Part shown: piece after piece, positions 29,601 through 59,445 of the stretch
Layout: every line of letters begins with the position of its first letter
How positions within the stretch are numbered: the stretch's first letter is position 1
NCBI RefSeq assembly: GCF_024713975.1
Contig: NC_091107.1
Location: 19,893,501-19,957,500 of the forward strand
DNA from: Paralichthys olivaceus
Lineage: Eukaryota > Chordata > Actinopteri > Pleuronectiformes > Paralichthyidae
Direction: 5' to 3'
DNA length: 64,000 bases
Made by a program: the position numbers and the translations under genes
The notes under the pieces: generated by a model
What the model was told of the DNA's origin: nothing
Seen by the model: only the letters and a program-made list of their open reading frames with translations
Databases searched by the model: none

Positions 29601-29840
29601 GTAGTTCAAGCAGCTGTAGACAATCAAACTCTAGAACGTCATTCTGTCTGGCTGGACCTGATAAACAAATCAAACATTTGAATTCTTCCTGTTTAAAAGT
29701 CCAACTACATTCAGTTTACTCCTGTAGGCAAATCACAGCCTCACTGCACCATCTAGTGTTGACTCATACACATGACTACACATTTGACACATGAACGTTT
29801 ATCTAACTTGAGGAAAAAGTCAAAAGCCAATAACTTATTT
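23620..29840. other. Gene-free stretch between wnt11 and the THAP12-like gene
   Basis: The open frames here (longest about 130 codons) show no family similarity and several are antisense pairs of each other. No tRNA, rRNA or array structure was seen. Local GC-richer patches at 25.84-26.13 kb and 28.59-28.76 kb might be regulatory. Otherwise I see nothing. Confidence 0.5.
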
Positions 29841-29849
29841 TTGGAGCAT

Positions 29850-29855
29850 TTTATT
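29850..29855 (-). terminator. Candidate polyadenylation signal of the THAP12-like gene
   Basis: AATAAA on the minus strand, about 620 bases past the stop codon at 30474. The region between is AT-rich and plausible as a 3'UTR. Confidence 0.35.
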
Positions 29856-30473
29856 ACTTTTCTGACAAATATATATACGAAGGTTTTCCTATCAAGGAAA
29901 CATTCTTTCAAAGATACGTTTACAGCAAATTAATTCCTGCAGAGAGACAGGAAACTTGGGAAATCATCAGAGGACATGATCGAACTAACTCTGCTATTTG
30001 TGCCCAGGAAAGGTAAAGGGTGCAATTTCATAATTATAATGAATTTATGACAGGGATACACAAGTCAGTCTTGTCATTTTGGTAATGATAAAAATAGAGT
30101 TGTTTCACAGCCAATGGGACATTTTTAAACAAGTGTATTATCATAATACATGGGGTGAATTATTAGTTTTGCATCAAGGCACACAAGCATTGATTACTGT
30201 CAGTGGAGCATTGCTTTCTTTTGCCAAGATATTGGTCCCATTGGGCAGTACAACTGTACAAACTACAGAATAAAAAAAAAAAAACATAACATGGGGTTTG
30301 GTTTGCAGGAAAACAAAAGGAAAAGATTTTAGATCATAATGTACACAGAAAGATTGAGTTCAGAACTTAGGACCTCAATTTGGATTGAGACACTATAGTT
30401 CTTGAATATGTTTGTCATGACATCTCAAAAGCATTATTCAATCCTGCTAACCGTGATGGAAGACCTTCAACTC

Positions 30474-32005
30474 TTACAGTGCATGGAGCTCAGAGAGAGA
30501 CCTCTTCTCCTGCTGGATGAACTCCTGGAGGCTTCTTTTTCCTTGCCTGAAGTTGCTCTCCTTCCTGGAAAACGGCAAGATGACCTGGAGTCTGAGGAGA
30601 GTCTCAATGTTACTAAAACTTCTAATCTGTGACGTCTTCAGGGTGTCGAGCACAGTAGTAGGAAGATAACCGGCTAGGGGATCCAACCATTTTTCCTTCC
30701 ATGATTTCATCTCGGACTGAAGGGAGGCCTCGTCTGGCAAGTCCTCCTTGTACAGGCGGAACACGAGACCACTGAGAATGCTGGTTTCTAATTTGGACAT
30801 TGCGTAAGGCACAATCTCCAGACACCTCAAAGTATCCAATACCTTTTCTGTGAAGAGGTCATCAATCTCTGCTATTGAGTGCTCTATAACTCCCATGCTT
30901 ACTGATTCTTTGTAAAACTCACTCAATGGCTCTAGGAGCACTGAATGCAACATTGTGACATGGAGCTTAGAAGCCAGTGCGACAGCTTCCTCAAACCAGG
31001 CCTTGTGATGGCTGTCAACATCACTCTTCAGTTTACTAAGGCATGCTTTGAGATCAGACAAATTATTCACAGCAAGTAGCATGTCTAATGGTTTGCCCTG
31101 AAGAGACTGGCTTAGCTTCTTCGTTACACTCAGGGCGTTTTTCTGCGCAACTGTTGATAGGATGAACTCAAAGTTTCTGATTTCATTGAAGAACTGTGAT
31201 GCTTGCTGCTGGTTTGAAACACTTCCCTCTCCTTTCAGCTCATTCAAGCAGAGCATGACTGACTCTAAAATCTCTACCATCACTTCGTGCATGTCATGAC
31301 TCTTCTCCCAGCTCTTGATGAGTTTGTCCCGCAGCTCGTTGCCCTTTCCTTCGTCATCCTGGAACACGTGAATGATGGTGTCTTCCAGTTTGTTCTGGCG
31401 TTCTGCATCCTCTGTGAGCCAATGTAATATTTTACTAATGAGAACTGCTCCATCAGCTACTTCTTGAGAAGGAGAGGATTTAGCCAGCCATACATTAAGA
31501 GACAAAGAAGAGCTAAAACTTCTTACAGCCCGAGGAAATTTCTCAGCTATAGCTAAACTTACAGCCTTCATCTGAGTTCCTACTTCACCTACACTCAGCA
31601 AGGCCTGTCCTCTACAGTACTCCATGTTGAGCCCCCACTTCTCAGACAGGGTAGTCACAATAGCATCTGCAAGAGCAGCATGGTCTTCACTGAAAGGGAT
31701 GAAAGCCAGTGTTTCCTCACACTGGACATCCTCTTTGTTTAGGTACCTGATGCACAGGGGGACATAGAGCTCCCTGTCAATTTCAACAGCTTGCTCAGTT
31801 ATGATTGTGAAGAACTGAGAGTCCCAGAGTTCCTTGAGGATTTGTTCACGCAGCTGTGGCTCATAGAAGGACACTGCTGTTCTTGGTTCCTGAGCGACCT
31901 CTAGTATCTCTTCATTATTAGCCAGATTCCCCTCTCCATCTGCAGGCTTTGCTTCACTGGATGCCTGCAATTCTGTTGGTGTCCCTTGATTTAATTCAAA
32001 GACTC
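30474..32005 (-). CDS. hAT-derived module D (terminal) of the THAP12-like gene
   Basis: One exon of 509 codons plus the stop, preceded by a 37-base exon at 32149-32185. Landmarks: SQFFTIITEQAV, PLCIRYLN, CRGQAL (about residue 2073), LNVWLAKSS, FILSTVAQKNA, FYKESVSMGV, CLEIVPY and EMKSWKEKW. The segment before FFT is about half as long as in the other modules, so an N-terminal helical part has been lost. The first catalytic-type Asp is Glu. A hydrophobic stretch just above the exon is intron sequence, not a signal peptide. Confidence 0.82.
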
Positions 32006-35000
32006 CTGATGGCAACAATAAAAAAAAAGTCAATAACACAACTTCAAACTCAGCAAACATTGAGCTGATTAACTGCTCATTGTCTTTTTAATAATCAGAA
32101 CTTTACATATTGGTACCTTTATTATCTGGTTGGCATGAATGTACTTACCACTGTCCAACTTTAGTCCTTGCAAAGTTCCCATTACCTATAAAATAAGACA
32201 AACAACTTTGCTTATTTAATGTCGACAAAGGCTATAAAAATAATTATGTTTATATTTCCTACACAGTGCAAAGGCAAAGTATAATCTAGGGCTACAATCT
32301 ATCCATTATCACTTAGTATTTTCTTTATTAATTGTTTGGAGTCTAAAATATCAACTGAGGAAAAACTGTCCAATATAAGGCCCAATAATCAAAGGTTAGT
32401 TTTATCTCATATACCCCTAAACTCAAAATATATTCTATATACTACCAACATTTTCTATTAGATTTCCATTTGGGTAAACAGTTCTTGCCAGGAAAATCAC
32501 CTTGACAATGAAAATTGTTAACAATTGTTGGTCATTCTATTAACTAACTGTTGCAGCTCTTTTGTAATGTTAAGGAAACAAATTCTTAATTTACCTGGGA
32601 AAGGCATGGACTGCTCTCTGGATCCACCTCCATACACTTCTGAATGACCTCCGGTAGTCTCTGCAGTGTTGTGCAGTGAGACCGGAGCATCACATGATCC
32701 ATTCTGCTGCCTTTGCATAGAGTGTTTCTTAACAGATCCCTCATGGAATTCAGCGTTGTCTTCATCAGATCACACTCCATACTGACACTGGGCAGGACAG
32801 CGACAAGCCTCAGCAGTAAGGTAACAGTTGGGTGGCTCTTTGACTCAGGATGCAATAGAGTTTCAGCTATGGATGATGGAGGAGCAACATCCTGGTATTT
32901 CTCGCTCCACACAGTTGCCCAGATGTTGATTTCCTGCTCAGCTACTTCTGGCTCAGGAAGCTCTGTAAGATAGATGCTGAACGGCTTGTCTGTGGAATCC
33001 GCCAAAATCGGTTGTGGATTGCAGGAGGGCAGCAATGACAGGACCGACAGGGCCTTTAAGTGGCTGTCTGAGAAACTGTACTTCATCTCATCAACAAGAC
33101 TTCTGAGGAGAGGAACACTCAGATTTTCTCTGTAATATAACTCAGGAGACTCATAGCTCTGGGCTTCCTCTGAGAAGCACACTTGCTCAGGAGCTACCTT
33201 GGTTGCTAGCTGGAAGGCCTGTTCAAACCAGGTAGTGTGTAGAAAGCTCACATTCTCTAACATTTTGTTAAGAGTCTCTATGATTGAGGGGATTTTTTCA
33301 ACTTCACAGAGAATGTCAGCAGGGTTTCCACAGCGGAAGACAGTGCTACAGTTACGAAGAGGAGCACAAGCGTTCTTCAAAATCACAAGGGTGACAATGA
33401 AGTCCATGTTTCTTAGAGCGGTAGAGAGAACTTGTGCATGCATCGACTTGGCTCCTGTGGCAGTAGAGCTAACAGCATCTAGGCAGCTGAGAACACCCTC
33501 TAATGTGTCAGTGAGTATGTCAAAGAAGTCCTCTCTCTTTTTCCACCTTGAGCAACATGTTTCTGGAATTTCCTCCAGGGCCTCTCTTGGCATATTTAAA
33601 AGCCCATCAACGGCCTGTGCTAACTGTCCCTCCAGAATAGGAGAGTCATCAAAAAACAGCATCAAGTCTTCTGTGATATCCAACATTTTAGCTACTGAAG
33701 GGCAAGGCACACTTCCTGCCAGCCAGTGGGCAAGGCCACACGACTCGCTGGGCGTTACAACAGAGAGTGGATAATTCTTCAAGACATCCAAAGACATTTT
33801 CTTCAGACTTTGGTAACCTGAGCCCAAATGCATGAATGCTTGCCCTCGACACTGAGACATCGGTAAGCCCCAGTCTTCAGTGAGAATCTTTGCGAGGTTA
33901 TTTGCTTGCGAGTCAACATGACAGTTTTCATCAAATGGTAAGAAACCCATGAGCTCCACTTTCGGGGCTGATTCTCCAACATACCTGACAAAAACAGGTA
34001 GGTGCGTCTTGTCAGCGATCCTCACAGGTTTGTCTGTGATGAGTGAGAAGAATGGAGATTCCTGTATTTCCTTGAGTATGACATCCCTGATTCCATTTAT
34101 GAGGAGGTTCACCATTTCACCATCACCTATAGAGGGCATGCATTTGTTCTCTCTTCCAAACCAGTGGCACATGCTTAGCTCCTGGATGAAAAGATCTTTC
34201 TCTTCTTCTGACAGGTCAGAGAGACTGCTATTCTTTTTTCCCAGTAGTGCAGCCAGTCTGAACACTGTCGCCAGACTTTGACGATTATCTCCTGTGTGTC
34301 CATTCTCATCTGCAGGTTTCATGTCTTGGTCCTCCATCTTGTCAGGTGATTGCTCAATTTTGGGCTGCTCTGCCTCCTCCTTTATAGAATCAACTAAATC
34401 AGAGAGAACATCAGACAACGTAAGCGAGCTGTTAGGGCTAACATTCAAATAATGTAATGACAACAGTTACATTTTGTACTCTTATTACTATAAATATGAA
34501 GTTAAAATTTTTATTTGAACAGCCATACCTTCCATATTATTTTCAGAACCCCTGATTAAACTTTTGGATTCCTTGTCCTGTTGAGTATACACAGGAAAAT
34601 TTGTCATTCATATAATTAATAGAAAAAGAGAATAAAATAAGAATAAGAAAATAACTTTACACACTATCACTTTAATTAAAGAATACAAATACATACCAGA
34701 CAGATACCCTCCAAGGCTTGTGGTGTAACCTTCAAACACTGGGTCACCATGCGGTCAAGGTCTCTGCTGAAGTCGGTGCCCACCTGCAGCATAGCCAAAC
34801 ACGGGGACCTGTCTTTAGGGTTTGTATTTCTCAGGTACTCTTGGAAAGTCTTGTGGCGCATTACAACACCACAGTCCTCCAGTGCTGTGCTGGGTAGCAC
34901 AGACATAATCCTCAGCAGTGCATTGATGTTCCCAAAGTACTGCATGAGGGGCAGACGGAGGGTGTGAAATATGGAGCTTGGGATGGTCACAGATGCCACT

Positions 35001-38000
35001 TTGGTCTTCCAGGTTACTCTCCAACAGCAGAGCTCTGTGGAGAAGTTGTCAGCATCGGGAAGATCACTGCTGTAGAGAGGAGGCTTTGACTTCAAGCTCT
35101 CAAACATGTAGCTCACTGTGACTGAGCAAGGAACCAGGGAGAGGAAGTTGAGAGCCTCTTTGTGGTCTTCTGAAAAATGATCCTTCACAGCATTGATCAA
35201 GTTGTCTACCAGGGGCACACTTAAGCCATCTTTGTAAAACCCAACTGGCTTTATCATTGCGTCTCTTGGCAAAGAGTTTTCAGGCACTTCAATCTGCACT
35301 CTTAGGCTCTGTGCCATTGCACAAGCCTCATCAAACCAGTTCTGATGAAACACCTTCATATTTGTCTTTACTCGGTTCAGAGTGGACACAATACCACTGA
35401 TTTGGCAAAGCTGGGATGCGGCACTGAAGTGGTCCTTCTGGAGACCTGCACTCAGCTCTCTGGTAAAAGAGGATGCATTCTTTAAGACCACCATGGCAAT
35501 GATGAAATCAAACTCCATTAACTTGCAGAGAAGGGCCCCAGCCTGTGTAGACACAGAGGATTTCCATCTCTGTGGGTTGTTTTTAATTTTCTCCAGACAT
35601 TCGACCAGGGGCTCCAGCATCTGCACAAACACCTCATAAGAATCATGCTTCTCTTGCCAATGGCCACAGAACTTCCCTTGTAACTCCTGGACCTTTTCAT
35701 AGCTCTCTCTAAGACCAAACGCTATCACATGGTCAAGCTGTTTTTCTAAAGTAGCACTGCTGCCAAAAAGCATCAAAACCTCTTCAAATGTATCCAGGGC
35801 TCTTTTAATAGCAGGCACTGGGATGGATTTTGACCACCATGTGTTGAAAGAGTAGGTAGAGCAGTGTGTGCTTATAGCGAGAGGATATTTCTCCTGGACT
35901 TTGCAGGCAAAGGCTTTCAGCTTGTAGGAGACATCACCAGAGCCTAGGTATGCTTGACCTCTGCAGTTATTCAAATCAAGACGCCACTCGACAGTAACCA
36001 TTTCCAAGAGACGCAGCACCATGAGATCACAATCAAGATCAGCCTCCAGGAATCCCATCAACTCCAGACGCATGACATCAAAACTATCCACAAACCGAAG
36101 GAAAAGAGGGAGAAAATCTCTCTCCCCCAGTTTCACAACACTGTCAATGAACAAGGAAAAGAACGAACTCCCCACTTCTGTGAGGATTCCTGCCCTGACC
36201 GAGTTCTCGCACACAGTGAGAACCTCTTTCATTTCAGACTTGGTCACATAGTCGACCTCTCCATCTTGAGCAGAAGTGTCCCTCTGTAGCCTGCTTTGAC
36301 TGCTGTATGCAGCAATCACTGCAGATTGCAAAGCAGATTTGAGCGCTTCTCTGTCAGTCTCGGCACACTTCAATTCCACAAGCCTTTCCGCATCCATCTC
36401 TAGGTTTATGAGTTGTATTTCCTCCTCAGTGTCCTTTTCAGCGTTGTTTCCATGAGCTGCCACTGAAATGAAAAGCGGGAATGGTTTTGTAAGCAGAGAT
36501 TACTTCATCATTAGTCAGTGTGGGGCATACTGGGGAGAAATCAAAAAAACTTTGAAAAAATTTATTTTTCACTTCCACAATTCAAATATTTCTAAAACTT
36601 GTACATTTACTTTTCTTTTTGTTCAAAATGCACTATAGCCTTCATTCTTGAATCTTTGTGAGTGACAACAAACCTAATATTTTTAACTGTGATCATATGT
36701 GATAGAATAGACTTGTCATTAACCACAAGCGGCAGCATGTTGAATTGGGAAACAGATTTTAAACATTTCTCACCTTTGGTTGGCTTCTCTTTTGTGTCAT
36801 CATCCTGTAACACACACAAATGTTAAAACACACACAAAACACACGTACACATTTTAAACCGAATTCTGCTTATAGTCGACTCACCATTTGCAGAATGTGC
36901 AGGATGTCTGGGTGCTTCTGGACATATGAATCCACCATTTGCTCTACATTGAAGTGCACGTCTTGGTTTACATAGACATATGCCATGCTGCACTGTCTTT
37001 GGTCTTCTGGTGTGGCTCTCAGGTAGGAGTGGCAGCGCTCCAGAACCATATGATATTGGCCATACACATCTGCCTCTGCATTTACACATGGAACAGTGCC
37101 TAATACTCTCAGCAAGCTCTGCACATTCGGGTAAAACCCAATGTCTGGGATCTTGAGGGTAGCAAACACTGTGGTTGGTAGGATTCTGCGCTTGCTTGCA
37201 TGTCTCCATTTCACTTCCCAGCAACCAAGCTCTTCGTAAAATGTGTCAGGCCTTGCAAGGTTGTTCAGGTTGGCATCTGCTACTTTATCCCTGCGAATGC
37301 TGAAATTGTGGTCAGCCATGTAAGACGGCACTAATGAGAGCCATCGTAGAATCCTCACCATCTCAGTGCTGAACACTCTCTTCACCTCTGCAACAAGATA
37401 CTGCAAGATAGGTCGGCTCAGAGTTTCTCTGTAAAAGTCCTCCAGTGGTGTTTCAGCTGTGTCCCCTTGGTCCATCTCTGGTTTGGTGACCTCAACTCCC
37501 AGCTTCTTGGCTCGGCCGACTGCATCTGAAAACCATTTCCTGTGGAATATTGCAAGCTCCTGTTGATATTTGTTTACCAGCTTTAAGGCATTGGAGATTG
37601 TGTACTGCAAGGTACTGCTGATGCTAATTATTCCCCTGAGACTTGAGTTGAGTATGCTCACACAACAGAGAGTGTTCTTCAGAGCAACAAGCGTGATAAT
37701 GAAATTAAAATTCTTCAGCACTGGCTTGAGCTTGGCCATCTGTTCGGCAGTGTCTTCGTCTACCTTTGAAATCATCTCATTGATGCAGTTCAGGAATGGC
37801 TCCAGAATATCCAACATGGTCTGGAAGGCATCAGTGCTATGTTCCCAATTCACACTGACAGCTGCTTTGATCCGATCCACTTCTCCTTTTAAATGCCCAT
37901 ATGTTATCTGGATCTTTCCTTCCAGTCTTTTGGAAAGCTCTGGTGTTCTCCTGAGTAACGAGGCTACCTCTTCCACGGTGTCTGCAGCCTTCTGGGTGGA

Positions 38001-41000
38001 GGACATGGGCATGCAGCGAATAATCCATATGTTGAAGGCATATGGGTCACTTGGCGACAGGACTACTTGAGGAAACTCCTGCAGAATTCTGCTGGTAAGG
38101 TCTCGCATTTTCTGACACATGCTGCCTGTAACCAAATAAGTGAGTCCCCTGCAGTGCTCCATCCTCAGCCCCCACTTGTTTCTCAACTCAGAGAGAAGCA
38201 TGTAAAACAGATTCTCTGCATCCACGTCACATGGTAGGAACCCAATGAGGTGCTTTTGTGGGAACCCATCAACGGTGACAGACCTGATGAAAACCGGAAT
38301 CTGCTCTTTTCCTTCTATGCTCGTCACATCCTGAAGCAGAATGGAGAAGAATCGTGCCTGTATGAGGCTATTTTGGATCTCCTCCCGCATGAGGTCTTCG
38401 CTGAACTGCAGGATTTCTCTCTTGTCAATTTTCTCCACACAGATACGATTGAGTGCTTGCTGACCCCTAGCGCTACCAATCGACTCATCTGCATTTGCAC
38501 CATTGATGCTGAAACCAGTCAGTGCCAGAATTTCCTTAAAATACACTTTTAGAGTCTCTTTTGCTTTAGAGCTGGTCACATCCTCTTGGGTTTGGTTATC
38601 GTTTTGCAGTTCAGGCATGGCACTCTGCTCTCCACAAAATTCTTTTGTCTCCTCTGTCACTTCTGCTGTGTTTTCTAGTAGGAAAGACAAATACAACTAA
38701 TTGAATTAGGAAGATGATTTTTTGAAATTGCAAATTCAGTCAGTGAATAATTACTTATAATAATTACTTAAAACAAGGGTGAATACATTTGAACATAGAC
38801 TAAAACTCAAGTCTTATTCAAATTTATATCTCAAGAGGCTTTAATGTGGAACTTTTTAAGGATGAATTAATGCAGTACCTTTTGTTTTCTTCACAGAAGA
38901 AGGTTCCTCTTCCGACTAGGAAAATGAAAAGGGTAATTATATACTTGCAGTTTTCATGTATCATTACAAAAGCAGCCATTTTAAAAATTGAAGCACTTAC
39001 AGGATCTCTAGCTCGTTTCCTGTTGCAGGGCAGTTGATTATTCTCCAGTGTCGTTAAGTCAAATATTGTTGGAACAGCATCATCACTTAGGACACAACTA
39101 GAGGCGCTCTGAAAAAACAAGAACAGACCTTTATGCAAAGCTTCAATCATCAACTTCAGACCATGTGATATTAAAACTAAATCAAATTATACTGCATGAC
39201 ACATTTTATTAAATCTAATTATTATAGGAACTCTTAATCAACATAGTCTGATGAATACCTTAAAAAAAGTAACCAATGTGTTGTTTGCAATGTAAGTTGG
39301 TGTAATTCTTCAAATGACCTTGATATTTTTGACAAATAAATGCTTATTGTCTCTTATATACAGTATTTTACTTTGTTAATTATATTTGTAAAGTGTATAT
39401 CTTCCCCATATTTGTTCCTTTCTGATTCCACTGAAGCTCACAGAAAGTCTGTCATTCCTCTTTCAAAATCATTTTCTCTGAAAGAATATTTCAGGTTTGA
39501 GCTCGACATCTGTAATCTTTCACTCTGCTTGACAGACATTCTCCCTGGTTTATTTCTGCAGTGAAGCCAAAAGGACATGCCATTGACTCGTTTATAGTCG
39601 TAACCTCCTGCAGGTTAGACGCTGACTAAAACTGGAAGACCTACTATAGACTCAGAGCTTGAAGCTTACACTCAAGCTCAGAGTGACTTTTGGGTTGTCA
39701 GTGTCTCTTTTTACCTGGTTACTCATTTTGGATGGATAGCCATCTTTATATCAAGCCCTGGTGTTTCCAAACTTCTTGCATTTTGCAAACAACATTTGTT
39801 GTAACATTATAAGCGTCACAAAGACAGGAATTAGAGCTGCTACTGTTGTATCAAATTGAATTTGGCTGTTCAGTTGTGCCTTCTAAACTGGTAATTCTGG
39901 TTGCCCTGGTTAAGTTGTGACAATAGAATAATGTGTTCAGGTTTTAATAAACGTTTGAGTACTGACTCACCAAGAACAACACAACAGTGATATACTGGTA
40001 CTATAATAACAAACCAAATAAGATTGGTGTCTTACCTGTTGGGAGATCATTGAGGGCTCAAAGTGCTTTGCACAAAGTCTGTAGAGTTTATGCAACTGCT
40101 CAGCAGGTTCTGATGACAAGTCCTGGCGACCGGTGTTGATCAGCCATTGTTTACAGCTGAAAAATACAGAAGGGACAGATATAAATCATTGAGGTCACAA
40201 ACAAACGCACATTTATTTTCTTCTGTACTCTACATAGTACTGCCTGTATGGAAAGTGGTGCAGATACAAATTAAAAATTTGAATGTAGTGGATTTAAATG
40301 TGGTTTTATAAGGGGACTGTTGGGCCTTGGCAATGACATGCACTCTAATGGGTGCCTTTCTACTTATTGCTGTGAAACAGTATAGCATGGTCTATTGTGA
40401 TGCACCAGTTAAATAATGATGAGCAAGGTGACACTTTACATCAATATAGACAGCAATCAGCAGAACTGCTCGATCGAGGCTACTGTCTTGATCTGGTTAA
40501 CTGGTCTGTGACACACACATAAGTTGCATCCAAAATAGCAACTTGTATTATTTGTTACTTATTAGAAATTTACACTTTTTTTTATCTGAGAGCATTAAAC
40601 ATGCACACTGAGTGAAAAACTGGATATTAATGTTTGTTTTACAGTATAGATAAACACTATTATTAAATTGGGCTACCATTTTAATCAATCATTACCAGCT
40701 CTTATGCATGGACTGAGTCACAGTAGATCGTGCAAAACAAGTTTTATTTACAAATTGGGTTAGATAGTTCTTTATTCATGGCGCCTCCTGGTGGTAAAAT
40801 ATCCCAAAACAACCTAGCAAAGCTATTACCTCTCATCCAAACATGTTGTTTAGTTACTAGAGCTTTAATTTCGATTTATAGACACAATTAACAAATATTA
40901 AATAACTTGTTTCATCCATTGATGTTTAATTGTGCGAGAGTTGGTTGATCCACCTCAAACTAGTTTGTTGTGCTTTCACCTTTTTGAATAAAGAGGCTAA

Positions 41001-42442
41001 ATGACGAATGCATTTTGACTCCAGACCAAGTTATTTTCTTGATAATTGGGAAAATGGAAAACTAATTGTTACAGCACCACCTTGAGGTCAGTGACTGTCA
41101 TTCTTTGGCACCTCAGAAGTGGGTCGACTTTTTCAACACAGCCACGAAAAGAAGCAAGCAAGACAATACTTGGGCCACTAAAAAAGCCAGTGGTGATGAT
41201 TGATGACTTCATCGCCGGGTGAACGCACACGAACGTGACATCAGAAGCTCTTGGTGTGTTTTACACGTGCACAGGTGAAGTCACGTCTGCAGCTCCTGCG
41301 GGGATCTGTCAGACTCACCTGACTCATGCAGACCCGCTCCGGTTAGCTGCATCACAACAACCCTGCCTCGGTGATACCACAACTTAATCGCGATTTATTA
41401 CTGACCCTCCACTTTACACGGTCCCTTCATTTTTGCCCTGTCTTCCATCATTCATTCTCTTCTTTCTCTCGTGCTGTGTGTCATTAACGCACGGAGAAAA
41501 TACGGGTGGATTAGAACGCCTGAGGGGGAATGGGCTTCACCTCACAGCAACATTAGCAGGGTGCTAGTTCGAAGACGAGCACGCGGAGCAGAATGCTGGT
41601 TTAGAAAGCACTCACTCACTGCAGGGGTGTGATGTATTAGTCGGTGGTGGCTCTGGTTCTGAGGTTAGATTTCCTGTGAGTCAGAACTGCAGCTGCTACT
41701 CAAACGCACTTCTTGAACTCATCTGACTTTTCATTGTTTAATCGCAAACACTGAGCATAATCGTGCAGAATGAGCCTGATCTCAGTGGATTGACCTGAGT
41801 TGCGGAGCGGCCACAGGATGCAGGAGGCGCTACGGTGTTATTTATTCATCACCTGTTAAAATCACGCAAAACTCGGTCTCAATTGACATCCATGTAAATG
41901 CTCCGTGTCTTAGTTCGAGCAGAAACAAGCACAACCACCGCTCTGTGGCTGAGGCGGTTTCATTTCCCTGGGCTAACGTCAGTCACACACCTCTGAGGCG
42001 GTAGGTGTCGTGCACCGATGGCGATTTAGATTACAACACAAAAAAAGTTTTTAACTACGGTTTCTTGTTGTTTGTGAAGCCACCGGACACAAAGACACGC
42101 GGACAGAAACATTAACGATCAGCAGCGTCCGTCTCCGGCTCTGAAGGACCGATCGGAGCCTATTTCACTCGTTTTTTTCCTCCTCTCAAGTGTAACTAGT
42201 CTGCGCCATTTTCGACGGAGTTGTGTCACTGTTAGCCAACATGCTGCGAAGCTAACGCTACCAGTGCTAACAGTTGGGAGCTAACGCATTCATTGTGCAG
42301 GCTCGCGGCTCGTTTTCAAACCCCGAGTTCAGTGAAATAAACGCGGCTCTTACCGCTCCGGGTCCGCAGGGAAGCTGAAAAGTGTAGTGGTCGAGTCCCC
42401 TCGCTGGTAATCACAGCTCACCGCGGCGCAGCAGTCAGTCAT
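30474..42442 (-). CDS. THAP12-like protein with four tandem hAT-transposase-derived modules
   Basis: Exons, 5' to 3': 42354-42442, 40036-40156, 39001-39108, 38879-38915, 36885-38674, 36774-36804, 34697-36462, 34529-34577, 32595-34393, 32149-32185, 30474-32005. Every intron is GT-AG and every junction keeps frame, giving 2452 aa. Residues 1-86 form a THAP zinc finger (ligands C5, C10, C58, H61; AVPTIF at 81-86). Four diverged copies of the thap12 transposase body follow (about 119-715, 726-1314, 1331-1930, 1943-2452), each preceded by a short exon of 10-16 codons. Thap12 (PRKRIR/DAP4/p52rIPK family) was named for regulating P58IPK, an inhibitor of the kinase PKR, and has one body of about 600 aa. 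The extra copies are all open, which argues for selection on protein. It is probably a nuclear DNA-binding protein; its function is unknown to me. The alternative, four separate genes, is unlikely because only the first copy has THAP exons and the internal copies end in donors, not stops. Confidence 0.85.
32595..34393 (-). CDS. hAT-derived module C of the THAP12-like gene
   Basis: One exon of about 599 codons, preceded by a 49-base exon at 34529-34577. Landmarks: SPFFSLITDKP, PVFVRYVGE, CRGQAF (about residue 1512), LAHWLAGS, FIVTLVILKNA, YYRENLSVPL, VLSLLPS, and a weakened EINIWATVW segment in which the CW pair is lost. The open frame continues 71 bases above the exon, but only the acceptor at 34393 (CTGATTTAG|TT) joins the previous exon in frame. 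Confidence 0.82.
34697..36462 (-). CDS. hAT-derived module B of the THAP12-like gene
   Basis: One exon of about 588 codons, preceded by a 31-base exon at 36774-36804. Landmarks: SSFFSLFIDSVV, PLFLRFVDS, CRGQAY (about residue 892), FNTWWSKS, FIIAMVVLKNA, FYKDGLSVPL, FLSLVPC and ELCCWRVTW. The opening 'MAAHG' of the open frame is not a start: the exon begins at an acceptor (TTTCAG|TGGCAG), and the G carried over makes a valine codon. It ends GICL|GTATGT. Confidence 0.85.
36885..38674 (-). CDS. hAT-derived module A of the THAP12-like gene
   Basis: A single exon of 597 codons, phase 1 to phase 0, with the 37-base exon 38879-38915 in front of it. Family landmarks in order: an acidic/helical lead, ARFFSILLQDV, PVFIRSV, the CRGL motif at about residue 293 of the full protein, FNIWIIRCMP, FIITLVALKNT, FYRETLSRPI, WLSLVPS and EELGCWEVKW. 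CRGQA is changed to CRGLT, and the first catalytic-type Asp is Gln. The exon ends ILQM|GTGAGT where thap12 would reach its stop codon. Confidence 0.85.
39001..42442 (-). CDS. THAP-domain exons 1-3 of the THAP12-like gene
   Basis: Three exons encode the C2CH zinc finger: C-x4-C in exon 1 (C5, C10), a tryptophan four residues into exon 2 (W34), C-x2-H as LCAKHFE (C58, H61), and the AVPTIF box in exon 3. Exon boundaries and phases match those of the neighbouring thap12. The proline usually found in the CAAP stretch is valine here (CAAVSC). THAP fingers bind DNA in a sequence-specific way and need zinc. Exon 3 ends with a basic patch (NRKRARD) that could act as a nuclear localisation signal. Confidence 0.85.
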
Positions 42443-42640
42443 TTTGGACTGCAATGTAGCTAGCTAGTAAGTTAGCTAGCTTAGCAGGCGGTTGCAAGCG
42501 GGCTAGCCTACTCTGAGCAAACCTGCAGCAGAGTCTACAGGCTCATGCCGTGGGAGCAACCTGCAGCCCGGCCTGTCGAGTCTCACTGTTGTTTACGCGC
42601 AGCGTCTCTTCGGCGAACTAAGAACCGACTAAGTCCATGC
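41900..42640 (-). promoter_or_regulatory. CpG-rich promoter and first-intron region of the THAP12-like gene
   Basis: GC- and CpG-rich DNA surrounds the ATG at 42442. It contains clusters of GCTAAC/GCTAGC words (42231-42286 in intron 1 and 42457-42485 just above the ATG) and a YY1-like CGCCATTTT near 42204. The same word clusters mark the other promoters in this window. The start site itself cannot be read. Confidence 0.5.
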
Positions 42641-42649
42641 TTCCAAAAG

Positions 42650-43591
42650 TTGATGTTGCGCGGTGAGTCGCCGAAAGCGTGTTATCCCATCAACCAGGAA
42701 CTACACCGGGCAGTAACACGTGTTCCCCAGCAGAGGGCGGAGTGGCTCCAACAGGCCTGAGCAGAGGTCCAGGGTGAAGAGATGAAGAGTGCTCCACTGT
42801 GGGAGCATGATCCAGCAACACACCTTTTTATCAAGATGGGGTTTTATTCAGGGAAATGCTTGTGCCAGCCTGCTCCAGATGACAGCAACACACTATTCAA
42901 TAATAAATAAAACATGAGTATATTTAATCATAATTATGATTTCAAGCAGGTTTTTCTTTTTCATTATTTTGTCACATGCAGCACCAGATAATGGTTCCAT
43001 TCTCGGTTCACTTGGCAAAAATCTTCCTCTCAAATATTTTCATCAGCCTCCTATATGTGACAAAGAATAATTTGACCGACAGAAGAAATATACGAAACGT
43101 ACTGTACTGTGCCTGATCAAAAACATATATAATAAACTTACAAACTTCTTGTTTATCTATCCATCCACCCAGTCATAATATATTAATGTTTTATATACTC
43201 TATGTTGTGTATAAATGTATAGGGGAGAAGAAACACAAACACTTATTATTCCAAAGAATTGATCTCTTTATTTACATGTTCAGTGAAGGTCAGCAAATCC
43301 ACTGGTGATAGACACACTGATAACATTTATAACTCTAAACCCAAACTAAATCGTTTGCAACTGATTTGAGCAGTGAAGAGAAGGAACATTACTGAAGACA
43401 ACAGTCACTGCTGTCCAAGTGTTTGTTCATTTATTTACATTATATAAAAAAACATCCGTTTATGGGCTAGGGAGAAAGAGACACACACAAAACTTACATC
43501 TACCTCACATTAAAGATAACACAACCTGCGCATACTAACAAAGCAGTGGATAATGTGTCCAGAGGCTGAACCACATCACGACTGATTTCAT
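42650..43591. other. Space between the two THAP genes, including the thap12 3'UTR
   Basis: The part nearest 43592 is AT-rich and plausible as the thap12 3'UTR, with minus-strand AATAAA at 43267-43272 and again at 42843-42848. The part nearest 42650 is upstream sequence of the THAP12-like gene. No separate gene is seen. Confidence 0.45.
43267..43272 (-). terminator. thap12: Candidate polyadenylation signal of thap12
   Basis: AATAAA on the minus strand about 320 bases after the stop codon. Other candidates lie further downstream. Confidence 0.35.
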
Positions 43592-46105
43592 TCACACCTG
43601 CTCCTCTCTGGTAGGGTGTGTGTTCATGTAGACCTCAACCATCGAATCCAGATCATACCCAACATCATAATTCATGTTCAAAACAGCCAGACTTTTTGAT
43701 TTGAACTGGTCAGGCGTGTTCTCCATGTACGTCCTGAAGCACTTGAATGCCACATTGCAGCTGTCCTCCAGAGCCAAGGTAGGTAGGACGCCAATCTGTC
43801 TCAGGACCGCAAGCACGTTTGGGAAGAACTTCACATCGGCCAGCTGCAGCGTTTCTTGAAGGCTGGATGGCGACGTCTCACCTTTGACCTTTTTGCTCCA
43901 CTTAACCCACCAGCAGTGGAGCTCGGCAGAGAGGGTTGCTGCATTAGGGATCAGATTTTTAAACGCCTGTATGCTCTCCTCCTCAGGTTCACTGGACTTG
44001 TGCAGCTCTATGATGGTGGGGATCAGCGACAGACACTTCAGGGTCTTCAGGTGGTCCTCACTAAACAGCTCGTCCATTTCTTTGATGATGTGGTTCACCA
44101 CGGGAACAGACAGGTGGTTCTTGTAGTAACTGTCTGGTTGAATGGTTCCTGATTCTGACTGATACTTCCTCAAGAATGCACGAGGAAGCTTAACCGGGAT
44201 CTCCATCGCAGCGGCTAGGTTAACGGCCTCATCATTCCAGAACTCGTGATACACATCGATGTTGTCCAACACTTCCTTCAGGGAGTGCGATACAGCTTTT
44301 AAACTGCTCGCAGCAAAATGGGCGTCTGGTTCGTTCCCCTGCACGTTCTTCCCAAATGCTCGAGTAAGAGTCATCGTGTTTTTCAGCACGACCAGCGCAA
44401 TGATGAACTCAAAGTCAGTTAGTGCTTTCGAAATCTCTAAGGCGCTGTGTGCGACTTGGTCGTTCCACCTCATGTCTTCGTTATCGTGCACGCTGTCCAC
44501 ACATAATAGCAGTGCCTCTACGATGTCCACCGCCACCTCAAACGCATCGTGTTGTCTGGTCCAGTTGGAGCCACAGATCTCCTTCAGTTCATTAGCTTTC
44601 TCCTCCTTGTCTGGGTAGAAAATCGAAATAGCATGCTCCAACTCCAGTTGGAGTAACTCGGACTGACTGAAGAATGACTCAATTTTCTTAAAGATCGACA
44701 TAACGAGCTGAACCCCAGACAAAGCCATACTACTGGCAAGTGCCACATTCAGTGTTTGAGTAGATCTCAGTGCAACTACTGCCAATGGATATTTCTCAAT
44801 CAGTTTGGTAGAAAAGGCTTTTATTTTGCTAAAATGTGTCCCAGAGTAGGAGTGTGCTTGACCTCGACACTGTTCCATATCCAGGCCCCACTTGTCAGTC
44901 ATCTCAGACAGCAGTTTCTCTGCCAGGGCATCTCCATCTCCTTCAAAGCCCAGGAATCCAAAGAACCTCTCCCGCCGGTAGTTAGACTGGTCCACAAAAC
45001 GGACAAACACAGGGAGGAACCATTCTCCTGAGATCTTCACGACATCATCAGTGAGTAATGAGAAGGAGCCGTTTTGTTTTACTTCCTCCACCAGCTTACT
45101 GCGGATGCATTTTTCACACACCTCAATCAACTGACTGAGCTGAGCTGAGGAGCAACCCTCCCTATTCTCATTGTACCTCTTCTTCAGGACTTCATCTCCA
45201 CTATTCATGCGATATTCTAACAATGCCTGAAAGTTGCTTGACCCAACACCATCTTGTTTCACATCACCGGGCCCTGTAGGAGGAATGCTCTGCTCTCCCA
45301 AAAGCACAAGAACTTCAAATAACGACTTAAGATACTCCTTGTGTTCATCTTCCTCAGTCACAGTCGGGATATCTTCCTTTGCTGCATCTGTTTGAGACTT
45401 CTTCATTTCTGAAAGGGAAACAGAAACAGTTGCAGGACAGAAACCAAATGATTATTTCTCATTTTCAGTTTCAAGAAATACATTAGTGTGTATTTGTTGA
45501 CATTTCTTCTTACTTTTTCTCCCCCTAGTTTCTGTCTCATCAGTTTTGGTCTACAGAATTAAAGAGACAAGAGATAAATTAGAAATATTTTTACATGTAA
45601 ACGCCAAAAATCAAATAGAACAAAACCTTTTCCCCTGTTCAAAACGATTCATTTTACCCACCGTCTCTTTGTTCCGCTTCACCTGTCCATTTTGAGACTG
45701 GCTTGTCGTGTCGAAGATAGTCGGTATGGCATCATCCTTCAACACTGTACCTTGTGCATCCTGAAAGCAGTTAAGACAAAAAGGCTCATCACATAACACA
45801 TATGTAGACTTCAGAATAATGCAAATGCACAACAAAATCGGTGTATTTAACTGACAATTGGTTAAATCATATGCAGGGCTGAATTCTGGCTGAATGACTG
45901 GCAAGTAAATTAAAAGTACTGCAGTGTCTTTGGTCAATTTGTCCACAATGGCCAGAAATCATGTGCAACTCGAAGAAATCACTTACACTGTCAATCAAAG
46001 ACGTTTCAAAATGTTTTCCACACAGTCTGTAGTATCTGTACAGATGATCTGCTGATCTGTCTGCCAGGTCTTTCCTCTGGCATTTCTCTACCCACTTCTT
46101 GGACC

Positions 46106-46137
<32 letters not shown>

Positions 46138-46944
46138 AATACAATACATTAACACATGTCAAAAGGATCAAATATACAAAGCATCCTCCTAACTTATTAG
46201 AATGACTGATACACACTCATGGAAATGATTAAGCCAGTATGAACCTCACAATGTGACGAAAGGTTACCCATCAACCTCTAATCATATCAAATAATTGTCT
46301 CATTTGCATCTACTTGCGAGATATATTTTGTTAAGTCACTGGTTGTATAGCTGTCAACTTCTAAATATTCAATGCAAAGTTTTTTCTATACATATAGGTA
46401 TATTCGTTTTAATATATGTATATGTATGTATATATGTACATATTTATATATAAGTGTTATATTTTTTCTTCGCATGGTTTTCTTATACCAGGGTTTGGAT
46501 GTTGTTGTTTTTCCGTCTTCATTATTCCAGGTCAATTCAATATTACTCTTATTATATTATTATTCGATCATCCCCTTGTGACTAACTGTAAATACCCACA
46601 TGGTTACAAATGTCTTCTCTGGAACGACACGCTACACAACTGATCAACTCTCCGTGGCTTCACTTTAACAAAATACATTCTAATGCGCAAACATTTAGAT
46701 CACGAGCAGGTGACACTTATATGTATATTACGTTAGCACGTTGTAAAGTTACGAGCTGCGTGTGAGCGTGGAGCAGCTTTAATAAAAGTAATAACAGAAC
46801 GTTCTCAGCGGGCAGCTACAACTAGCATTAGCTTTAGCACGGTGTTAGCATGAGTTACCTTTCTGCATCGTGAGGGAACCTGAAGAGTGGCTGATTGTCT
46901 GATTTACTACTCGTGCAGCTCGGTGCAGCGCAGCGGCTCTGCAT
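43592..46944 (-). CDS. thap12: THAP domain-containing protein 12 (PRKRIR-type)
   Basis: Exons, 5' to 3': 46859-46944, 45987-46104, 45662-45760, 45514-45550, 43592-45408; 718 aa against 761 in human. Residues 1-84 are the THAP finger (C5, C10, C57, H60; AIPTIF). The giant last exon carries the domesticated hAT body: KEYLKSLFEVLVLLGEQ, FQALLEYRMNSGDEVLKKR, FSLLTDDVV, PVFVRFVD, CRGQAH (about residue 294), FIIALVVLKNTMTLTRAFGKN, YYKNHLSVPV, KCLSLIPT, AELHCWWVKW and KFFPNV. The second hAT catalytic Asp is absent, as in human THAP12. In mammals the protein was described as p52rIPK, a repressor of the PKR inhibitor P58IPK. It lies next to wnt11 in human too, with the same relative orientation, which supports orthology. 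Fish may carry a and b copies; I cannot say which this is. Its first intron has an odd 3' end (see the C29 tract). Confidence 0.93.
46107..46135. repeat. 29-base G homopolymer inside the thap12 intron 1 acceptor
   Basis: On the minus strand this is C29 followed directly by AG and exon 2, so it forms the whole polypyrimidine tract of the splice acceptor. Length is likely unstable and hard to sequence. Confidence 0.9.
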
Positions 46945-47060
46945 TGTTGTTACACAGTCTCAATCGTACGTGTGTTTGGCTGTGAGGCTACTGTGAGTAG
47001 CCAACTGCTAACGCTAGCTGTGATGTCACTTGAAACAAGATGGCTTCCGATTATTAATTT
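46945..47060 (-). promoter_or_regulatory. thap12: thap12 promoter-proximal region
   Basis: The sequence above the ATG at 46944 includes a YY1-type AAGATGGC (47037-47044), a motif often found at start sites of housekeeping genes, and a GCTAACGCTAGC cluster (47008-47019). A matching TTAGC cluster lies just inside intron 1 (46821-46857). Confidence 0.4.
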
Positions 47061-48230
47061 CAAAATAAAATGCACGAGCGGCACAACCACAACGCAGCTA
47101 ATAAAGAATTTCACACTACGTCTTGATAACGTCATTGCAACTATGTATTGTTTTACTTGTCAAATGTAAGTCATAAACATAACATCGGGGCTTTTCCCAT
47201 CAAACAACTCCACAGAATCCACATTGGTTCACTTGTCCCCATTTCTAAGTGTCTGTGGAGACAAATAGTAGTTTATACGTTTATTTTGAAGGGAAAGCGG
47301 CTTCCTTGTTTAAAAAGATCTCTGGAGCTTGACGTAACGAGGAGCGCGCGAGTTTCGGTCTGCTCCCACAATCCTTAGCGGTCTTTTCAAATGCGAAGGA
47401 TAGAAACCTGATGAAAACATGTCAGGACAAATTCTCCAGGAACATGTCATCGCATGTTTGTTACACGACGTGATATCAGTGATCCACCAATCACTGATGT
47501 ACGGATGTGATCACGTCTTGCTTTACTATTAGTGATAAATAATAATATTGAATATTGAATTGAATATTTGTGTGCACTAAAGATCCTTGTATGTGATATA
47601 TACATGTATATATCATTTCAGTGTATTTATTATGATCGTTTATGTGATATTAGTGTTATTCATATATATTTTTTCCAAACTTAAGTGATAGAAACACACT
47701 ATGTTACATATCTTTACTTTAAAACTAAGCTAAACAATGGCTCACGATTGTGTTATACTACTTAATGATAACTGATCTATACTAATAATACAAACAATAA
47801 TAATTATCATAGCAGTGTTGCATTTTTCTACTTGATATTTTCAACAGTTTATTTGGTGTGGCCTTATTTTTAAAATCAATGATTCATTAGTATATCACGT
47901 CGTGTTATACTTGTGCTACTGATAAACGATATGTAATAATAATATTACAAATAATAATTAGAGGAATATTCTACTTGATATTTTCAACATTTTAAAATAA
48001 TAGAAGAATATTCTACTTGATATTTTCAACATTTTATAATAATAGAGGAATATTCTACTTGATATTTCTCATCAACATTTTCTTCGTCTTCTGCTTCTCT
48101 CCCTTCATAAAGCATCGTGAAACGAACACGTGATGGATCCTGAGAATCACCGCTGATGGAGGTTCCAGCGGTGTTTACTGAGAGCTGAGGCCGAGTCCCG
48201 GCGGTCACACCCTGGGTGGAGCTGTGAGCA
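47060..48230. other. AT-rich space between divergent thap12 and the CKAP2-type gene
   Basis: Mostly AT-rich, non-coding, with a short tandem repeat at 47961-48085. No gene is seen. Confidence 0.55.
47961..48085. repeat. Three-copy 42-base tandem repeat
   Basis: 'aatattctacttgatatttt' recurs with a period of 42 bases ('attctactt' at 47968, 48010 and 48052). A looser fourth copy, 'tttctacttgatattttcaac', lies further up near 47825. Confidence 0.85.
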
Positions 48231-48339
48231 AGGGACCGGTATCACTGGAATCCTATTTGCTTTCAAACATTTGAACAGAAGCAGTGAAAAGTTGTGCGAT
48301 CATGAGAAATGCGCCTGTTCTCCCACTCTCGTCCTCTCT

Positions 48340-48506
48340 GTGGAGACATCCTATTGGTCACCCCCGCTCTCTCGCGATACTAGTGTGGCCAATCGCAGCG
48401 CAGCAGCGCCAAGTCAAATCGAAGTTTTGTTTTTCCGCGATCAGAGGAGCGAGTGTCACTGATCCGGAGCTGCCTCCTCGTGCTGTCCTACAGACAACCA
48501 CAGCCG
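48340..48506 (+). promoter_or_regulatory. Promoter and non-coding first exon of the CKAP2-type gene
   Basis: Two NF-Y type CCAAT boxes about 36 bases apart (ATTGG 48353-48357; CCAAT 48389-48393) are followed by an E2F-like TTTTTCCGCG (48430-48439). Paired CCAAT boxes of this spacing are usual in genes switched on in G2/M. A donor CCG|GTAAGT ends a first exon at 48506, which joins the acceptor at 48833. Confidence 0.55.
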
Positions 48507-48845
48507 GTAAGTTAACACTCTGTCGTTAACGTGAATGTACTGGATGTATAAGTAATACAGGTGATAACAGCTAATGCTCCGTACCGACAACACTCCCTGT
48601 TTCCCTTCATGTCCGTTAATTCTACGCTGGGAGCAACGATAACGTTTCGCCCAATCGCCCATTGCTTTATTTATTCTTTCGTTGAAAAAAATCGCGATCA
48701 GCTGCTTAATATCGGCACAATTTGAACTTTTAGATTACAATATATTTTTCAACTATAATCATGACATGCTAAATGACTCGGTTCATTCACAGTTGTAGTT
48801 TTATCGTATTTATTGCCTTCTTCATTTTCCAGAAAACGCTCCAGA

Positions 48846-51096
48846 ATGGAAAACGTCGCAGTTTCAAGTCGAAAGTGCACAAATAAAGTAAGTTTATGTC
48901 AGTGAACATCACATTAAAAGATTGTCATGGTGTGTTGATCAATGAGTACTTCAGGGTGTCCCCTGCCTGCATAATCGTGTCATTGTTTGACATTCATTAG
49001 GGAAACAAGGAGAATGCTCAGCCTGCACATGGAAGCAAATCCCTCATCAAGAGAGATAAAAAGCCTGTGGCTCCCTTTCATCTGAAAATCAACGGAAAAG
49101 AGGAGATCTCAGCAAATCATGGTCCTCTTAAACCCAAGGCCAAACCGGCGGACACAAGGTCCACATGCAGTGATGCTCTAAAAAAGTCAAAGACTGCGCA
49201 GAAAGACGGGAGAGGAGCTGCTGCTTCTGATGTTGCACGACGACAAACTCTCAGCCGGGCCTTCCTCTCAGAGCAGGCTGTGAAGCAGAAAAAAATAGCT
49301 GCAGAAGCTCCAAAGCGACCAGCTGCAGCGCTGTCCTCCAGATCGGCTCCTGGCATGTACAAAGGAAAGATTGTTGAGTCGAAGATAGGATCCATTTGGA
49401 AGTCAACTACTAGTCTGGACAGGGCAGACATCAAACCATTGGTGCCAAAAGCTGAGAGACAAAGGGTTGAGAATGTGAAAAAAATAAGGTCCAAATCTGT
49501 TTCTGACTTACCTGCACCTGGCACAAAAAAACCCGCACCAACCGTGTCCAAGTCAGCGTTCAATAGACCTGCCCAGGTGTCCAGGCCTGCTGTCACCAGC
49601 CGCCCTCCTGCTGGATTCTACTCTGCCCGCCCTTCTACCAGAACCGTCCCAGCCACCAGATCCAGAAACCCCACTGTGACCGCCGCCAAGGGAAGTGGGT
49701 CACTGAGCTCCAAGCCAAAGATTCCAGTGAAAGACAAGGTCAACAAACCTGCAGTCTCAAGCAACCTCAGTCAGTACCGATTAACCACGGAGACCACTGA
49801 GGAAAGAAGGTAACATTTTACATTCCACGCACGCACTTCATGTCTGCCCTGTGCATCGGAAACAGCATAAAAATGTTTTGTGTTTTGTCTGCAGAGCAAA
49901 ACTGGCTGAGTGGCTGGCTTCCAAGGGCAAGACGTTCAAGAGACCGGCCATGACCACAGCAGCACCTCCTAAAACCAACGCCTCCAAACCCGGAGCTGAT
50001 CTCACATCCCAGTCTCGTGCTGAACCTCGGCCCGCTGCACAGTGCAAACCTGAAACCCAAGCACCTAAAGCAGACTCCACTGCAGCTGACTGCACAGATA
50101 CACAGGAAGCAGCGATGACAACATGCAACCAAACTCCCAAGATCATCAACGCCACACTGGAGCTGCTGATGTCAGACGTAGATCTGCCTGTCGACCCACA
50201 GGACAGTGTGGATGATGTAAGGCAACAGTTTCTGCTGCTTTAGCTGCATTTTAAAATATTACCTCACCCCCAGTCACACACCTGCATCTTTTCTTTATTT
50301 TCTGTAATGACAGATTGTTGTGAACCTGTGTGATGCTCTGGAGGCAATGGCCACTCCCTCCAGATGCAGTGAAGGTAAGTTTATGTTTTGCTGTTCAGTC
50401 TCACACTTGTTGAGTAAATTCAGTTCTACACAGATGTGCAAATTTACAGACTTATTTTTTGTTTCCATACGAAGCCTCACAGGTGACAGAGGAGTGTACT
50501 GATGTAACAGAGGACGGTGAAGTGACAGATAAATGTAAAGAAGAGGTGAAGAATGACGCAGAAGAAAGAGTTCAACACAAAGTGGAGACGGATGAAGAGG
50601 AATTAGAAAGTGACGACGATGACGAAACTGATAATGATGACGTGGTGGAGACCACACCACAGATGCAGGATGCTTCAGTAGTAAAATACAGTGTGAAGAC
50701 AACTCCATACTTGCAAAGGTGAGAATATTCCTTAGTCAAATCATTTTACTCAGCTGTTTCATCAAATTGCCAAAAGGTGATTCGTTTTCACTTGTGATAG
50801 TATTTTGTTTCACCCGTAAAATATCTTCTTCGTGTAGTGTCAAGAGGACAATCGAAGGTGAGGTCAGTTCGTCCAGGAATAAGGGCAACATCAAAGATCT
50901 GAAGTTTCTGACACCGGTTCGTCGATCCACGCGCATCCAGCGCAAATCCTCCCACCTGCCAATGATGCTGGTCGACCGTGACCCCTGCGTGTCATCACTG
51001 GCAGAGCTGGTGAAGCTGGACGATGATCCCAATGCCTACATCTACAGAAAGAACCCTGCTCTTCTAGAAGATCTGCCAGACCATCCCAGGCTGTGA
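48846..51096 (+). CDS. ckap2: Cytoskeleton-associated protein 2 family (CKAP2/CKAP2L)
   Basis: Coding exons: 48846-48887 (exon from 48833), 49001-49809, 49895-50216, 50314-50374, 50475-50718, 50838-51096; 578 aa, all junctions in phase. A KEN destruction box sits at residues 17-19. A long basic, Ser/Pro/Ala-rich part (about 20-280) is typical of microtubule-binding linkers. AKLAEWLASKGKTFKRP (about 285-301) is the family signature, followed by a very acidic run (EEELESDDDDETDNDD). The conserved C-terminus has YSVKTTPYLQ, FLTPVRRSTRIQRKS and PCVSSLAEL. Family members stabilise spindle microtubules and are destroyed through APC/C at mitotic exit. The TPYLQ and PCVSSL pieces look closer to CKAP2 than CKAP2L, but I am not certain. 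At 578 aa it is shorter than the human proteins (about 680-745). It starts divergently from thap12, about 1.5 kb away. Confidence 0.88.

Positions 51097-52517: not shown

Positions 52518-59445
<6,928 letters not shown>

Follow-up and report, generated by a model that had tools for sequence, protein, structure and literature searches.

Can one gene carry four transposase-derived bodies behind a single DNA-binding finger? The question is raised by a 64,000-nucleotide (nt) stretch of Paralichthys olivaceus NC_091107.1 (the window, to whose positions all coordinates refer), in which the minus strand from 42442 to 30474 holds a relative of thap12 that we call gene B. Human THAP12, which we take to be the protein also called THAP0, PRKRIR and p52rIPK, presumably has exactly one such body in about 750 amino acids. 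Gene B reads instead as one THAP finger followed by four repeats of a unit made of a small exon and a giant exon. That it is one gene with a four-fold last exon pair we hold with high confidence. The whole explanation, in which an old tandem relative of thap12 had its last exon pair multiplied and came to encode a non-enzymatic DNA-binding scaffold, is in our judgment the probable one, held with moderate confidence, and the scaffold function taken by itself is tentative.

Exon structure of gene B

The 11 exons of gene B measure 89, 121, 108, 37, 1790, 31, 1766, 49, 1799, 37 and 1532 nt, and all 10 introns are bounded by GT and AG. Exon 1 (42354-42442) contains the start codon and the first part of the THAP finger, which runs through exon 2 (40036-40156) and ends in exon 3 (39001-39108), the last also encoding a basic stretch. 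The first unit consists of small exon 4 (38879-38915) and exon 5 (36885-38674), which encodes body M1; the second of exon 6 (36774-36804) and exon 7 (34697-36462, body M2); the third of exon 8 (34529-34577) and exon 9 (32595-34393, body M3); and the fourth of exon 10 (32149-32185) and exon 11 (30474-32005), which encodes body M4 and the stop codon. The joined coding sequence of 7359 nt, equal to 2452 codons plus the stop, is in frame throughout, with the THAP head at residues 1-106 and the units at 107-715, 716-1314, 1315-1930 and 1931-2452. A first-pass annotation had described four giant minus-strand exons of 1532-1799 nt, each after a small exon and joined in frame to one set of THAP exons for a 2452-residue product. 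Recomputation returned the same structure; the junctions that it named, 36885/36804, 34697/34577 and 32595/32185, are all three exact, and every number checked, from coordinates and giant-exon lengths to junctions and product length, was right.

All units begin and finish in phase 0, the small exon leading from phase 0 to 1 and the giant exon from phase 1 to 0, and their lengths of 1827, 1797, 1848 and 1569 nt (exon sums) are each divisible by three, so that units can be added or skipped without a change of frame. A stop codon within the giant exon is found only in M4, M1-M3 finishing at splice donors, and M4 is also shortened at both ends. The introns between the bodies span 80-409 nt. The linkers before the bodies, of 97, 88, 107 and 52 residues, are acidic and 23-25% hydrophobic, versus 37-41% in the bodies.

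Two single-body genes of the same genome allow comparison. Gene A (43592-46944, minus strand) lies upstream of gene B and head to tail with it, and encodes 718 residues in five exons (46944-46859, 46104-45987, 45760-45662, 45550-45514 and 45408-43592) with phases as in the gene B unit; its exons 1-4 measure 86, 118, 99 and 37 nt, and its product matches the Pfam models THAP (E value 6.3e-19) and DUF4371 (E 6.6e-8). The other gene, on contig 11, has exons of 89, 121, 108, 37 and 1904 nt and encodes 752 residues with one body; we name it thap12 from its exon pattern and from what we take to be the start of the human sequence. Exons 1-4 of gene B equal those of the contig-11 gene in length and also in phase (2-0-0-1), in agreement with the first-pass placement of gene B among THAP12 relatives.

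On the joined gene B exons the THAP model (PF05485) matches once, at E 6.3e-17. Residues C5, C10, C58 and H61 together with AVPTIF, which we take to be the THAP motif, can be seen by eye in the translation, and a basic stretch, KRAR...KKTK, likewise read by eye, follows the finger. A THAP search of the whole genome (588 Mb in 25 contigs) gave 36 matches, among which the split gene B finger is not listed alone; it becomes apparent only after exon joining. No second finger was detected in 30000-38600 (best E 0.11), and the heads of gene A and of the contig-11 gene do recover the THAP exons that gene B has in 38600-42500 (E 1.6e-11 to 1e-3). The single finger proposed in the first-pass annotation stands.

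Kinship and origin of the four bodies

The open frames of the giant exons extend over 608, 607, 626 and 537 residues. Chance open frames are ruled out, as 640 kb of Markov sequence matched to the local composition contains no frame longer than 287 residues, and the chance of 510 codons staying open is about 3e-13. All four bodies match the gene A body by BLASTP (E 1e-101 to 9e-67 over 446-619 aligned positions), in agreement with the first-pass annotation, which saw in each the same ordered landmarks as in the giant exon of the neighbouring thap12. Their amino-acid identity to it is 25.5-33.4%, M2 being the nearest of the four (33%). Alignment of the four modules with one another, which had been suggested as a check, finds them homologous and 24.1-27.9% identical in pairs. 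At the DNA level the giant exons can be aligned only in patches of 34-56 nt (E 0.01), and misassembly from repeated copies is thereby ruled out.

A nine-row alignment supplied the body identities to the contig-11 gene and to hAT open reading frames, the column counts, the catalytic columns and the analysis of THAP remnants and linkers; it held a low-complexity frame (L018) that was excluded from the final trees. Six rows were taken from it for a column count, and among the 485 columns filled in all six, 50 have one residue shared by M1-M4, where 1000 column shuffles give a mean of 0.21 and a maximum of 3. Codon matches across the six pairs of M bodies reach 51-57% at position 2, 40-42% at position 1 and 28-33% at position 3 (chance 25%), an order that marks all four bodies as long constrained at the level of amino acids. 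Third positions lie so near chance that silent sites cannot be used for dating.

Searches of the whole genome with M2, M1 and the gene A body, in which only the best candidates were scored, returned the same six thap12-type bodies, five in the window and one on contig 11. They make up 6 of the 30 matches listed for M2, 6 of 31 for M1 and 6 of 42 for A, the rest having E values of 8.6e-12 or weaker; of these, the two that were read (L015 and L027) are hAT-type transposase frames. Gene A is like gene B in exon number and phases through the first body and in body family; it differs in having one body, which is 45.7% identical (281/615) to the contig-11 body and 25-33% to those of gene B. The contig-11 body is itself 25.3-30.6% identical to M1-M4. 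In a tree with two hAT outgroup frames the contig-11 and gene A bodies pair (98/99) and the order of M1-M4 is unsettled, and without the outgroup M2 groups with M3 (86/88) and M1 with M4 (72/78). The THAP heads of gene A, gene B and the contig-11 gene are about equidistant, at 45.5, 45.3 and 44.6%; judged by these identities, the gene B head has diverged no more than the gene A head, while the gene B bodies have diverged further. Either the multiplication of the bodies predates the split between gene A and the contig-11 gene, or the bodies evolved faster afterwards, and the long branches permit no choice between the two.

The copies were presumably made inside the gene, by duplication of the last exon pair. 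The same product could have had another history, in which tandem complete thap12 genes shed their THAP exons and stops and were spliced into one gene. Genes A and B lie head to tail on one strand, so tandem gene duplication does occur at the locus, and at 24-28% identity any vestiges of lost exons would have vanished. However, the region 30000-38600 yielded no THAP remnant (best E again 0.11), the inter-body introns are too compact to sit easily with such a fusion, and as each unit begins with a small exon, exons 1-3 must have been lost on three separate occasions. We consider fusion unlikely.

The first-pass annotation also called the four bodies hAT-derived, and a comparison by hhalign of an M1-M4 profile with two hAT transposase reading frames from the same genome upholds this (99.2% over 461 columns, E 1.2e-19 for the pair). 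One of these transposases, the 731-residue L027 frame, matches DUF4371 and Dimer_Tnp_hAT, and matches Hermes chains in PDB over 41 residues only (E 0.0036); the body profile itself has no match in PDB at E 1. Proteins with DUF4371 include hAT transposases and usually have additional domains, for example an N-terminal THAP domain and a C-terminal hAT dimerisation region, according to the accessible part of one study (PMC3985635).

The second catalytic Asp is kept in none of the six bodies, being replaced by K, S, L, L, M and L in the contig-11 gene, gene A and M1-M4, respectively, and the first is kept in three (A, M2 and M3). All six likewise lack the AER Glu, and each keeps a Glu two places earlier; in CxxH the Cys remains in two bodies and the His in none, and in RW the Arg remains in one and the Trp in all six. 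The features of an active hAT transposase, D-D-E and CxxH/RW, are thus not those of the gene B bodies. Our assignment of the catalytic Glu is taken over from Hermes as we understand it, and the lost second Asp is independent of that assignment; for M1, hhalign puts both the second Asp and the AER Glu in the columns given by the nine-row alignment. With the second Asp lost, an ordinary DDE transposase is out of the question for all six bodies. The bodies of gene B and the DUF4371-type L027 transposase are therefore homologous across 461 columns and unlike in that those of gene B, compared with L027 or Hermes, have neither the second Asp nor the AER Glu, stand four in a row and follow a THAP finger.

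Could each body instead be an independent capture of a hAT transposon rather than a copy of a thap12 body? A hAT family with nine or more open frames of 731 residues does exist in the genome. Yet the bodies are 25-32% identical to thap12 bodies versus 16-19% to the two hAT frames compared, the tree splits the six bodies from those two frames at 100/100, an intron of phase 1 precedes every body, and the second catalytic Asp is missing in all six. Independent capture is ruled out by the tree, the common intron phase and the common catalytic losses, and we give it almost no weight.

The hAT family just mentioned is a DNA transposon found at L027:805-3000 (contig 2) and at eight further places on contigs 1, 2, 5, 6 and 10. 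Seven of the nine 731-residue frames listed have identical scores, the L027 copy being the one read, which suggests a recent spread in the genome. Scans of collections of virus and prokaryote contigs confirmed no relatives there.

One gene or several

Ranked by U1 pairing among 720 GT sites, the six inter-body donors stand between 4th and 76th, much as the donors of the THAP part do (2nd to 73rd). The pyrimidine tracts of the acceptors of exons 6-11 rank 417, 12, 153, 74, 32 and 32 among 977 AG sites. A CpG-rich, promoter-like stretch (41800-42799) covers exon 1 of gene B, with a ratio of observed to expected CpG (o/e) of 0.73-1.19 in four 400-nt windows. Overall the CpG-rich region occupies 41.0-42.8 kb, with a shoulder of o/e 0.60-0.86 from 41000 and its strongest part at 41.8-42.6 kb. 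No such stretch lies between the bodies, the highest o/e among windows starting at 29800-40800 being 0.49.

These observations bear on whether the gene model wrongly joins four distinct genes, or pseudogene modules in decay. In keeping with that, divergence is greater in the bodies of gene B (25-32% identity to the contig-11 and gene A bodies) than in its THAP head (45%). On the other hand, the four giant exons of some 510-600 codons contain no in-frame stops, codon positions rank 2 > 1 > 3, splice sites are found at each join with small exons of 31-49 nt that remain in phase, and a promoter-like CpG stretch between bodies is absent. We find wrongly joined genes or modules very improbable, and take all four bodies to belong, probably, to one transcript.

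Several points weigh against this reading and the descent proposed for the bodies. The exon 6 acceptor is weak, at rank 417 of 977. One window in gene A, within the giant exon, has a CpG o/e of 1.02, so that CpG content alone is no proof of a promoter. Poly(A)-signal hexamers (AATAAA or ATTAAA) occur in introns 6, 7, 8, 9 and 10, and shorter products may arise from the skipping of units or from early polyadenylation; the hexamers are likewise found in introns 1, 2 and 4 and are therefore common at gene B. Third codon positions stand slightly above chance, silent saturation being near and incomplete. None of the four gene B bodies reaches the Pfam cut-off for DUF4371 (M2 E 2.6e-5, M1 0.077, M3 and M4 no match at E 1), as is also the case for the contig-11 thap12 body (29.4 versus 32.1 bits), and the hAT dimerisation model Dimer_Tnp_hAT is matched by none of the six bodies at E 1.

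Some of these points would suit a gene whose THAP products vary from one body to four, or end at early poly(A) sites, the four-body form being perhaps minor. Units whose lengths are all divisible by three, hexamers in introns 6-10 and a weak exon 6 acceptor are what such a gene would be expected to have; but an in-exon stop is present in M4 only, M1-M3 close with splice donors, and symmetric phases are expected from duplication in any case. We judge a mainly shorter output doubtful, and prefer a gene B in which the four bodies are read together.

Neighbours, known systems and possible roles

On the minus strand of the window, a Wnt gene (PF00110) is located at 17441-18258 and an STT3 oligosaccharyltransferase gene at 54426-59134. 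The Wnt neighbour resembles what we take to be the human WNT11-THAP12 neighbourhood. Frames from 30 kb around the contig-11 gene match the window only inside thap12-type genes, and none of at least 79 wnt matches is on contig 11; with neither shared neighbours nor a contig-11 wnt, the comparison does not establish that the two loci go back to the teleost genome duplication. A weak CKAP2_C match (49785-50240, E 0.0002, below the Pfam cut-off) indicates a CKAP2-like gene, which is read from the plus strand and faces away from gene A; the DNA between them (46400-48999) is largely CpG-rich, and a shared promoter is possible. In gene A, a run of 29 C (G on the plus strand, 46107-46135) precedes the exon 2 acceptor; pyrimidine tracts are seldom so pure, and the site may also vary in length or be prone to assembly error. 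CpG is scarce in the four bodies of gene B (30400-38600, o/e 0.05-0.49), and the giant exon of gene A reaches about 1.0 at 44200-44599, a contrast that may reflect different germline methylation of the two neighbours.

Set beside the contig-11 THAP12, gene B is alike in its THAP finger, the lengths and phases of exons 1-4, a hAT-type body in a giant last exon and the catalytic losses, and unlike in encoding 2452 residues with four bodies versus 752 with one, the bodies being 25-31% identical. Gene B thus has the finger, the exon pattern and the DUF4371/hAT-type body of the THAP12 family and departs from it in body count. On sequence grounds it is a relative and variant of THAP12, and not a plain THAP12, because it has four bodies instead of one. 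Among the open-literature matches listed, which were mostly at the level of title and abstract, no multi-body THAP12 is reported, and the names thap12a, thap12b and thap12-like return no papers in the open literature; most subscription papers and the protein databases lay outside this scope. Within it, the first-pass statement that no THAP protein of four-body architecture has been described finds agreement. Automatic annotations of fish genomes may well include such a gene as THAP12-like. Other transposon-derived transcription factors are alike in having a DNA-binding domain joined to transposase-derived parts, and in the available portion of the source (PMC10027918) they appear as families or expansions of separate genes, unlike the four bodies per chain of gene B.

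The history we propose would begin with an ancient tandem relative of thap12 whose last exon pair was copied inside the gene until it was present fourfold. Symmetric 0-0 phases would have let this duplication proceed without repair of the frame. The product is predicted to be a nuclear, non-enzymatic DNA-binding factor akin to THAP12, in which the finger would select promoters. DNA binding by the finger is supported through homology; the scaffold role is more conjectural, with the four bodies forming a built-in chain of surfaces for protein binding or self-assembly. M4, shortened at both ends, may have a different role.

According to the accessible text of a preprint (PMC13404843), human THAP12 is found in nucleus and cytoplasm and binds promoters directly, and complex I is restored by nuclear, not cytoplasmic, human THAP12. 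The Hermes hAT transposase is described, in the part of the report at hand, as a tetramer of dimers (PMC10368747), so by analogy the linking of bodies in a single polypeptide could make permanent an oligomer which proteins with one body have to assemble. A more specific and rather speculative version, which we think unlikely to hold in full, is that a covalently linked assembly replaces Hermes-like oligomerisation, perhaps with scaffolds of graded size through skippable units, and with each body serving its own partner after long separate constraint.

If the four-body transcript is real, gene B would be a domesticated transposase that became a large modular protein through duplication within the gene, and transposase bodies freed from catalysis would be usable as repeatable building blocks. 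THAP12 is tied to mitochondrial complex I and to a human disorder in the available text of the same preprint (PMC13404843), and a real four-body transcript would offer a natural single-chain system in which to probe what the hAT body does in THAP12.

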